The translations under genes and the position numbers were made by a program. Below, piece after piece: positions 48,322 to 50,286 of a DNA stretch of 64,000 bases. The notes under the pieces were generated by a model, which searched no databases, was not told the origin of the DNA, and worked only from the letters and a program-made list of their open reading frames with translations. Source of the DNA: Klenkia brasiliensis (GTDB taxonomy: Bacteria; Actinomycetota; Actinomycetes; Mycobacteriales; Geodermatophilaceae); contig NZ_FNCF01000001.1 in NCBI RefSeq assembly GCF_900100695.1, positions 526,060-590,059 of the forward strand. Reading direction: 5' to 3'. Positions within the stretch are counted from its first letter, which is position 1. Each line of letters begins with the position of its first letter.

Positions 48322-49509
48322 TCAGGCCGGCACGGCGACCGGCACCCGCCGGCCCGGCAGCAGGGTGACGACGACGGCCAGCGCCGTCATGGCCGCGGCC
48401 AGCAGCAGGGCGCCGTCCACGCCGTAGGAGGTCTCCACGACCGCGCCGCCGATCGCCGCACCGATGGCCGAGGCGCCGAACGCGACGGTGGACAGCCAGG
48501 TGAAGGCCTCGGTGGTGGCGTCGGCCGGGGCGATGGAGCCGACCAGCGAGCTCTGCACGGTCAGCGTCGGGGCGATCGCGGTGCCGCCCAGGAACAGCAG
48601 CGCCCCCAGCAGCAGCGGCGAGGACACGGCGGCCAGCGGGAGCATGCCGATCGTCGTCCCCAGCAGGCCCCAGCGGTAGAGCCGCGGCAGGGACGCCGAG
48701 ACGACCCGCGCGCCGAACCACAGCCCGCCGGCGACCGACCCCAGCGACCACACGGCGAGCAGCACGCCGGACAGCCCCGGGGAGCCGGCCGCGTCGGCGA
48801 AGGCCGGGACGGCGACCTCGATGGCCCCGAAGCCGAGCATCAGCGCGGTGCCCGACACCAGCACCCGCGGCATGCCGGGGACGGTGACGGTGGCGAACAG
48901 GCTCCTGTGCACCGTGGGCGCCGGCCGCCAGGCCCGCATCGCGCCGGAGAAGGACAGGCCCAGCGTGCCGACGACGGTGAGCACCCCGGCCAGCGCGATC
49001 GCCGCCACGGGGCTGGCCAGCAGGGTGAGCGCGGCGACCGTGGTGGGGCCGGCGACGAAGACCAGCTCGGTGGTGGTGGCGTCCAGCGCGAAGGCGGTGG
49101 GTCGCACCCGCGCGTCGACCCGCGACCACAGCGCCCGGACCGTGCCGCTGACCAGCGGGGTCGACAGGCCGGCCGCGGCCGAGGCGGCGACGATCGCCGG
49201 GGCCCAGGATGTGGAGAGCACGACGCCGGCCAGCAGCACCAGCAGCAGCGGGTAGGTGACCGCCTGGGTGAGCAGCACCAGCCGCGGCCCGCGGCGGTCG
49301 GCCAGCCGGCCCAGGACGGGGGCCATCACGGCCATCGCGATGCCGTAGGTGGCCGAGGCCAGGCCGGCGACGGCGTAGGACCCGGTCTGCTGCTGCACCA
49401 GGAGCAGCAGCGCCAGGGGGACCATGGCGGACGGCAACCGGCCGGCGAAACCGGCGACGAGCAGCACCGGCGCGGAGGGAAGCCGCCACACGGTGAGGTA
49501 GGAACGCAT
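48322..49509 (-). CDS. MFS transporter with divergent CGNR regulator
   Basis: 395 residues, about twelve membrane segments. MFS motif A is seen as VMAPVLGRLADRRGPRLVLL. The two-fold repeat is clear, with the second half beginning at PRVLVSGTALMLGFGAIEVA. It resembles sugar-efflux/multidrug MFS proteins (DHA1-like); substrate unknown. A promoter with TTGACT (49608-49613) and TAGCGT (49585-49590), 17 bases apart on the minus strand, lies within the shared operator region. Expression is probably controlled by the divergent CGNR protein. Confidence 0.88.
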   Translation of the reverse strand: MRSYLTVWRLPSAPVLLVAGFAGRLPSAMVPLALLLLVQQQTGSYAVAGLASATYGIAMAVMAPVLGRLADRRGPRLVLLTQAVTYPLLLVLLAGVVLSTSWAPAIVAASAAAGLSTPLVSGTVRALWSRVDARVRPTAFALDATTTELVFVAGPTTVAALTLLASPVAAIALAGVLTVVGTLGLSFSGAMRAWRPAPTVHRSLFATVTVPGMPRVLVSGTALMLGFGAIEVAVPAFADAAGSPGLSGVLLAVWSLGSVAGGLWFGARVVSASLPRLYRWGLLGTTIGMLPLAAVSSPLLLGALLFLGGTAIAPTLTVQSSLVGSIAPADATTEAFTWLSTVAFGASAIGAAIGGAVVETSYGVDGALLLAAAMTALAVVVTLLPGRRVPVAVPA

Positions 49510-49544
49510 GACACAGCTCGCTTCAGGACGTACGGGGAGGGAAT

Positions 49545-49576
49545 CGTAGGGGTCGAACAGCAGTTGACCCCCTACG
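49545..49576. promoter_or_regulatory. CGNR-region inverted repeat 1
   Basis: CGTAGGGGTCGAA, six bases, then TTGACCCCCTACG, the reverse complement of CGTAGGGGGTCAA. Total length 32 bp with 13-6-13 geometry. The right arm includes a TTGACC that can serve as -35 for the plus-strand CGNR gene. Confidence 0.75.
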
Positions 49577-49584
49577 TGTTCCCG

Positions 49585-49613
49585 ACGCTACGAGATGCCG
49601 CGTAGGGAGTCAA
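49585..49613 (-). promoter_or_regulatory. Promoter of the MFS gene
   Basis: On the minus strand TTGACT (49613-49608), a 17-base spacer, then TAGCGT (49590-49585). The -35 lies in the left arm of inverted repeat 2. Confidence 0.6.
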
Positions 49614-49632
49614 AGCGCCATGACCTCCTACA
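49601..49632. promoter_or_regulatory. CGNR-region inverted repeat 2
   Basis: CGTAGGGAGTCAA, six bases, then ATGACCTCCTACA, whose complement TGTAGGAGGTCAT is a variant of the same 13-mer. The 13-6-13 geometry is identical to repeat 1, with centres 56 bp apart. It ends 18 bases before the CGNR ATG. Confidence 0.72.
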
Positions 49633-49650
49633 CACCGACAGGGGTGTGAG

Positions 49651-50181
49651 ATGGACTACGACGACTACGGGTCCGACGCCGTGGAGCTGGCGGTCGACCT
49701 GGCCAACGCCGACCGGACCGACCCGGAGTGGGCGTCGGCGTTCGTCGCCGCCCACCACGAGTGGTTCACCGAGGGCACCGACCTGGAGCTGTCCCGCAAG
49801 CACGGCAAGGCCGCCGGGACCACCGCCGACCTGGTGCGCGAGGTCGCCCTGGCGTCCTCGCAGAGCGAGGTGGTGCAGCGGCTGAACGCGCTGCTCGCGC
49901 TGGCCAGCCCCAAGCCCTACGCCACCGACCACGACGGCGCCCTGCACCTGCACTACGCCGCCCCGGAGGCCGGGGCGCTGGAGCAGCTGGCCACCACGGT
50001 GGCCATGGGGCTCTCGCAGGTCGTCGTGCAGCACGGCTGGGAGCGGCTGGGCGTGTGCGCCGCCGACGGGTGCGGCAACGTCTACCTGGACACCTCGCGC
50101 AACGGCAGCCGCCGGTACTGCTCGAGCACCTGCTCCTCCCGCTCGACGGTCGCGGCCTACCGCGCCCGCAAGAAGGGCTGA
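49651..50181 (+). CDS. CGNR zinc-finger transcriptional regulator
   Basis: 176 residues. An N-terminal ABATE-like ligand domain (about 8-125; VELAVDLANADRTDPEW) is followed by the CGNR finger: Cys136, Cys141-Gly-Asn, Cys157, Cys161 (CAADGCGNVYLD then RYCSSTCSSRSTVAAYRARK). The family is presumed to bind DNA through this finger and a C-terminal basic helix. It is divergent from an MFS exporter and flanks two matched inverted repeats, which are the likely operators. The effector is unknown, perhaps a compound the exporter removes. Confidence 0.9.
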   Translation: MDYDDYGSDAVELAVDLANADRTDPEWASAFVAAHHEWFTEGTDLELSRKHGKAAGTTADLVREVALASSQSEVVQRLNALLALASPKPYATDHDGALHLHYAAPEAGALEQLATTVAMGLSQVVVQHGWERLGVCAADGCGNVYLDTSRNGSRRYCSSTCSSRSTVAAYRARKKG

Positions 50182-50213
50182 ACCCCCTCCGCGGAACCGC
50201 CGACCAGCCCCCA

Positions 50214-50286
50214 CCGCCGAGGCGAGGGAGCCCCCACCCCCCGGACGGCGTCGGTCCGGTGGGTGGGGGCTCCCCTGCCTCGGCGG
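50214..50286. terminator. Long bidirectional hairpin between convergent genes
   Basis: 26-bp arms (CCGCCGAGGCGAGGGAGCCC... and complement) with two mismatches, around a 21-base loop that itself contains CCGGAC/GTCCGG-type pairing. It lies between the CGNR stop (50181) and the convergent gene end (50335). Confidence 0.75.

Follow-up and report, generated by a model that had tools for sequence, protein, structure and literature searches.

Two inverted repeats of the same form, here called O1 and O2, lie between a CGNR zinc-finger regulator gene and a divergent MFS transporter gene of Klenkia brasiliensis (Table 1). The locus raises the question of whether these repeats are operators and, if so, which protein would bind them and which genes it would control. 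We address it using the window, by which we mean the whole 64,000-nucleotide stretch of DNA that was analysed, and a comparison with related loci. The reading that we prefer, to which we give a probability of about three in four, is that O1 and O2 form an operator pair for the adjoining ABATE/CGNR-type protein, dimers of which would clamp the MFS promoter and also limit the regulator's own gene.

Table 1. Coordinates of the genes, repeats and predicted signals of the locus (window numbering)
Feature	Position	Strand	Basis and remarks
MFS_1 transporter gene, 395 aa, divergent partner	48322..49509	-	Domain match
O1 inverted repeat, 13-6-13	49545-49576		Conserved 30-bp core 49546-49575; starts at about +4 of the predicted MFS transcript
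Predicted MFS -10, TAGCGT	49585..49590	-	Predicted +1 near 49578; TANNNT spacing in relatives
O2 inverted repeat, 13-6-13	49601-49632		Conserved 30-bp core 49602-49631; entirely non-coding relative to the window CGNR gene
Predicted MFS -35, TTGACT, within O2 left arm	49608..49613	-	17-bp spacer; relatives' rule and window sequence
Nine-codon open frame (MTSYTPTGV, stop)	49620..49649	+	Runs from the O2 right arm; ends one base 5' of the CGNR start
CGNR zinc-finger regulator gene, 176 aa, zf-CGNR residues 132-174	49651..50181	+	Domain match and model

The two repeats in the window

The preliminary description of this DNA had reported two repeats of 13-6-13 form, each of 32 bp with a 6-bp gap and with centres 56 bp apart, placed between a CGNR gene and an MFS gene. 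Reading of the window sequence confirms the geometry, and gene coordinates together with domain matches confirm the setting. O1 reads CGTAGGGGTCGAA-CAGCAG-TTGACCCCCTACG, its arms being complementary at 10 of 13 positions, and O2 reads CGTAGGGAGTCAA-AGCGCC-ATGACCTCCTACA, complementary at 9 of 13. The arms had also been called four copies of one 13-mer, a wording that proves loose: the left arm of O1, GTAGGGGTCGAA, fits the later consensus GTAGGNGGTCAA at 8 of its 11 specified positions. A repeat finder reported neither the O1 nor the O2 pair, pairing the two inner arms with each other instead. When the 141-bp intergenic stretch was subjected to 5000 dinucleotide shuffles, 107 contained a 13-6-13 repeat at least as good as O1 and 13 contained two repeats equalling both O1 and O2, so that the window sequence by itself gives modest support for the pair; the support from relatives is strong (see below). 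A search of the organism's own 4.45-Mb genome for the 30-bp core, at most three mismatches being allowed, gives only the places of O1 and O2, and the reversed control pattern gives one place. Several O1 palindromes of Modestobacter lengthen outward, over the stretch equivalent to 49540-49583, to GGAATC...GATTCC, of which the window retains GGAATC on the left and TTCC on the right.

The transporter had been described as an exporter. It is an MFS_1 protein, as stated, but export is unproven, the multidrug model TIGR00880 scoring 28.1 bits against a cut-off of 131; no solved structure was matched by its sequence at 0.001. The regulator matches zf-CGNR with 62.6 bits (cut-off 24), while by sequence the ABATE domain (PF07336, PF11706 regulators) reaches 11.1 bits, under the cut-off of 24.4. 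Four of the five relatives tested pass that cut-off and the other, L038, gives no match. An AlphaFold2 model of the CGNR protein made from 29 sequences (pLDDT 89.4) has residues 1-4 disordered and a helix from residue 5. With this model Foldseek finds a single PDB match at E <= 0.001, Jann_2411 (3H0N; E 5.4e-9, TM 0.73 over the model), whose two-domain fold the window protein is predicted to share. The two proteins are alike also in the 5-16-4 spacing of their four zinc cysteines, C136, C141, C157 and C161 in the window protein and 147, 152, 168 and 172 in Jann_2411. They differ in that the window protein has an ABATE part falling under the Pfam cut-off and reads CSSR where Jann_2411 has CQNR, neither being the literal CGNR motif.

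The accessible part of its description presents Jann_2411 as probably dimeric, with a zinc finger that is likely to bind DNA, suggests DNA binding and an unidentified ligand, and names no operator (PMC2954205). This was the only paper with a title on CGNR/ABATE proteins that was found in the open literature, and within the same scope no operator for an ABATE/CGNR regulator was found. On the 3' side of the CGNR gene, at 50206-50285, a long G+C-rich inverted repeat (GAGGCGAGGGAGCCCCCACC... / ...GGTGGGGGCTCCCCTGCCTC), read by eye, is probably a terminator.

Conservation in the Geodermatophilaceae

A search for the pattern GTAGGNGGTCAA-N6-TTGACCNCCTAC with at most three mismatches, accompanied by a control pattern, was run across 112 Geodermatophilaceae genomes. 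Operator-like sites were found in 96 of them, at one place in 90 and at two in 6; the control gave 0 matches. The check proposed at the outset, whether related CGNR/MFS pairs lack the motif, has thus been made and favours the proposal. All 30 site loci fetched, from among the places listed, have both a CGNR and an MFS gene adjoining the site. A CGNR match is present in 109 of the 112 genomes, three of these matches being weak (G016, G067, G073). Among the 16 genomes missed by the pattern, at least four have a diverged form of the site (L012, L013 and L016, and L048 by coordinates), five have more distant forms (L136-L139 and L141), one (L140) was not usable, three lack a CGNR match (G072, G095, G098) and three have the weak match. 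L139 and L141, family relatives at about 50% identity, are without a 30-bp O1. Upstream of their CGNR start a shorter dyad of about 21 bp (e.g. GTAATGGGTTAAGACCCCTAC) occupies the O1 position and O2 stays in place; these most distant family members have a different O1 geometry.

The arrangement of the genes was compared with tblastn at 110 loci (L006-L115). Both genes were found in 65, representing 53 distinct sequences, and were divergent in all 65, with a spacing of 95-149 bp. The remaining 45 loci, from more distant actinobacteria, showed no relative of the window MFS protein at 1e-5. Of 40 further family loci 39 were usable, the intergenic stretch of L140 not being obtainable, and in these too the genes diverge from a short, conserved intergenic stretch. 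This gave 104 loci in total, 81 of them distinct, with relatives in Klenkia, Modestobacter, Blastococcus and Geodermatophilus. L006-L035 and L036-L070 come from two collections that overlap in genomes, and counts of distinct sequences are labelled as such throughout.

O2 at the start of the CGNR gene

CGNR starts in relatives were chosen from protein features and not taken from annotation. On these starts, 63 of the 81 distinct family loci have O2 lying across the start codon, with its right arm as coding sequence. The left arm (typically GTAGGGAGTCA and one further base) abuts the start codon on its 5' side; the right arm, usually TACGACACCTAC, forms codons 3-6 of the gene. This placing of O2, which depends on the starts so chosen, is an addition to the preliminary description. 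At the other 18 loci, including the window, the CGNR start lies further downstream; O2 is non-coding there but its arm is kept. These loci belong to the window's genus and to part of Geodermatophilus.

At 9 of the 13 moved-start loci tested the stretch 3' of the O2 left arm resembles the present gene start more than at least 97% of 2000 shuffles do. The likeness is best in L045 and L061, where 2 of the 2000 shuffles were as good; the corresponding figures were 147 for L012, 1083 for L155, 1575 for the window (L006) and 1634 for L009. Translations such as VTDDAYGVSTAHQR and MRYATYVSPWVG, compared with MDYDTYGSTAVELA, point to duplication and displacement of the start, in Geodermatophilus at any rate. 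Stretches resembling a former, duplicated CGNR start, some with a short open frame, are seen between O2 and the start in L044, L045, L058, L061, L065, L120, L132 and L134. The nine-codon frame of the window is possibly a remnant of such a former start, its likeness, as the shuffles indicate, not being significant.

The position of the start is also reflected in base 7 of the O2 left arm. This is A, which gives the Shine-Dalgarno-like TAGGGAG, in 61 of the 63 loci where the start adjoins the arm, base 7 of O1 being G in 58 of the same 63. Among the 18 loci with a moved start, 11 have A and 7 have G at this base (Fisher p 2.5e-4 for the contrast, uncorrected for kinship). Where it abuts the start, therefore, the O2 left arm probably doubles as the ribosome-binding site.

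Spread beyond the family

Of 148 actinobacterial genomes sampled, 104 contain zf-CGNR. The comparison was extended beyond the family by 20 of 21 order-level matches and by 110 class-level matches among those listed. From the resulting 280 genes, 219 were placed in the nearest subfamily by an HMM of our own (score >= 60) and 215 had a start that could be anchored on protein features; the 65 dropped comprise 61 removed by the HMM cut and 4 in which the start could not be anchored, the upstream sequence was short or a stop intervened. Removal of 69 near-duplicates at 90% identity left 146 distinct genes. In the set of 215, GT[AC][AG] occurs at -12 in 100 genes and at -13 in 43, while any single offset between -30 and -14 has it in 0-10.

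Of the 146 distinct genes, 89 have O2 and 109 have an O1 dyad; O1-like dyads arose in 358 of 2920 draws of shuffled upstream stretches. In 80 of the 84 genes having both (90%-distinct) O1 and O2 are equal in length, 48 at 30 bp and 32 at 31 bp. Divided by group, O2 occurs in 44/52 genes of the MDYDTY type, 15/18 of the VELAYY type, 17/18 of the MVFAHD type, 8/8 of the MDNADY type and 4/13 others. It is absent from 57 of the 146, with 0/10 in the Streptosporangiaceae type and 1/27 in 'HD other'. Few 30-31 bp dyads were found in other CGNR subfamilies, which score low with the HMM, and inspection by eye of 6 of 17 plasmid records, including that of a proteobacterial relative on a Thioclava plasmid (L320), revealed no clear O2 of this form. 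Two plasmid-borne CGNR genes of another subfamily (L317, L318) adjoin AEC family transporters, again a pairing of regulator and transporter.

A further addition to the preliminary description is that the arrangement is not confined to MFS neighbours. CGNR genes of Kribbella and Hamadaea, at about 35% identity, have both O1 and a start-codon O2 without a relative of the window-type MFS protein. Candidate divergent neighbours were chosen at 12 loci by GC at third positions, and ten were tested against Pfam: four are EamA transporters (Arthrobacter, two Nocardia, Phycicoccus), three methyltransferases (Streptomyces) and two malic enzymes (Herbidospora and Rhizohabitans, both without O2), and one, from Kribbella, has no Pfam match. 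Since the O1/O2 plan persists as the divergent neighbour changes, the operator pair goes with the CGNR gene and not with any single partner. Helical phasing of the two sites was considered but is not claimed: the distance from the start of O1 to that of O2 is spread, for the most part within 45-64, and peaks at 46-47 and 53-56. At the Kribbella and Hamadaea loci (L090, L076) the O1 region seemingly lies over the start of the divergent gene too, with an ATG on the minus strand in the O1 right arm; both divergent genes may there have an operator over their starts.

Predicted promoters in the intergenic stretch

Diverging promoters with a -35 hexamer in each inner arm had been proposed, TTGACT in O2 for the MFS gene and TTGACC in O1 for the CGNR gene. 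Comparison upholds the former and not the latter. In the window the predicted MFS promoter reads TTGACT-17-TAGCGT, and a TANNNT lies 16-18 bp from the O2 left-arm hexamer in 68 of the 89 subfamily genes with O2 (background 0.012), although the hexamer matches TTGACA at four or more of six positions in only 56 of them. Between TTGACC and the candidate TACGAG, by contrast, the window has a spacer of 19 and some Geodermatophilus one of about 10, and the mirror-image promoter, running from O1 towards the CGNR gene with TANNNT at 16-18 bp, was seen in 1 of 84 genes; no CGNR promoter was found in this way. A conserved TA lying 12-14 bp upstream of O2 was considered as the CGNR -10 and rejected: in 96% of 76 genes the base four positions ahead of it is A, which makes it a minus-strand TANNNT, the -10 of the divergent gene. 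A strict sigma-70 scan returned no promoter in 49450-49720 because TAGCGT shares only three letters with TATAAT.

Within the family the promoter spacing fits 68 of the 81 distinct loci, and O2 is thus predicted to overlie the transporter promoter. In the other 13 the TANNNT is closer, and in 11 of these it follows TGN, like an extended -10. In 54 of the 68 loci the predicted MFS transcription start falls short of the O1 core by 1-5 bp; in 4 it coincides with the edge of the core or enters it by 1 bp, and in 10 it lies 6 bp within. The predicted leaders measure 53-73 nt.

Selection on the coding half-site and alternative explanations

Where O2 covers the start codon, position 4 of its left arm faces the third base of codon 5. 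Of 45 genes with A at that position, 43 have a T-ending codon 5, whether it encodes His, Tyr, Asp, Pro, Ser or Gly; the reference is the 5.5% of T among C- or T-ending codons later in the same genes. If the position is G, codon 5 ends in C in 40 of 44 genes, and in genes without O2 it is T-ending in 17 of 51. Within the 45 A-arm genes the tree requires 10 changes at bases 1-2 of codon 5 versus 2 at base 3; on the tree as a whole arm base 4 itself changed three times, too few for a test of independent pairs. Codon 6 goes with the ends of O1, TAC accompanying GTA/TAC in 132 cases and GAC accompanying GTC/GAC in 22, with 20 other combinations (n=174, near-duplicates included). In the 89 genes the coding half-site pairs with its partner arm in 72 at position 3, 83 at position 4 and 53 at position 5, compared with 10-28 at each of positions 6-11; positions 1-2 are near-fixed through the selection rule, and pairing is confined to the outer positions. 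The paired fraction is 0.56 in register 0 and 0.14-0.38 when the arms are slid. The comparison thus indicates that the coding half-site is maintained at the level of nucleotides.

Might the coding arm of O2 be accidental nevertheless, a protein constraint on residue 6 (Tyr or Asp) facing a left arm that is merely a Shine-Dalgarno sequence plus the -35 of the partner gene? Residue 6 is indeed almost always Tyr, and is Tyr also in Jann_2411 as read from the primer in the accessible part of PMC2954205; TAGGGAG and TAAGGA look like Shine-Dalgarno sequences, GTCAA is the partner -35, and T-ending codons are raised at other early positions as well, namely codon 2 (15/27) and codon 8 (10/24). Against this stand a rare T-ending codon 5 across six amino acids, its replacement by a C-ending one opposite a G arm and its lower frequency without O2. 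Left arms of the form GTAATATG or GTAACCTG contain no Shine-Dalgarno sequence, pairing has its maximum at register 0, and the 18 moved-start loci retain the arm as non-coding DNA. We regard an accidental origin as unlikely.

The remaining alternatives accept the palindromes as functional and assign them to something else. That they serve a regulator other than the CGNR protein is very unlikely in our estimation. The comparative evidence bearing on this is linkage only. Against such a regulator, all 96 matching family genomes have no more than one or two places each, every one of the 30 loci fetched has the site at a CGNR gene, and the site remains with that gene when the neighbour changes. Action as RNA, through an O1 hairpin in the MFS leader and an O2 hairpin around the CGNR start codon, would agree with the expected position of both hairpins in transcribed leaders and with the folding of the window O1 and O2, as RNA, better than shuffles (z -4.11 and -3.71). 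Long DNA palindromes in general fold so, however, and when start-codon forms of O2 were taken from five relatives' loci, their folding did not surpass that of shuffles (z -1.24 to +1.41). The fixed 30/31-bp geometry common to O1 and O2 also argues against a role as RNA, which we consider highly improbable.

A proposed model for the repeats as paired operators

The comparison of relatives supplies the conservation and geometry of the sites, their link with the CGNR gene, selection at the level of nucleotides on the coding arm of O2 and the position of the partner promoter; from this we infer binding by the CGNR protein, repression, release by a ligand and autorepression. On our preferred reading, with O1 and O2 as operators of the CGNR protein, a dimer at O2 would cover the MFS -35 and a dimer at O1 the first transcribed bases of the MFS gene. 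The MFS -10 lies between the two, and the promoter would be shut from both sides. A ligand would cause CGNR binding to be lost and the transporter gene to be opened. In most family relatives O2 extends over the CGNR ribosome-binding site and start codon and over codons 1-6, so that a dimer bound there would hold the regulator itself down as well. More broadly, we think it likely that a large actinobacterial ABATE/CGNR subfamily has a 30-31 bp operator over its own start codon, combining -35 box, ribosome-binding site, start and half-site (codons 4-6) in one stretch, and that this has been kept as the neighbour was exchanged (MFS, EamA, methyltransferase).

In the tetR/tetA system a regulator and a transporter gene likewise diverge, and tandem palindromic tet operators overlap the promoter region between them. 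The window resembles it in the divergent gene pair and in the two palindromic operators at the promoter region; the protein fold, however, is unrelated, and the CGNR system has an operator across the regulator start in most family relatives. The PurR repressor of E. coli has an operator in its own leader or coding region. Like repressors of that type, the CGNR regulator may have an autoregulatory site extending into its own gene, but here the half-site lies in codons 4-6 and is kept over many genera despite amino acid changes.

The comparative motif provides the exact DNA to test, and would predict the target promoters of many uncharacterised regulators and transporters. The coding half-site offers a clear example of how selection for an operator can act on the synonymous positions of codons.
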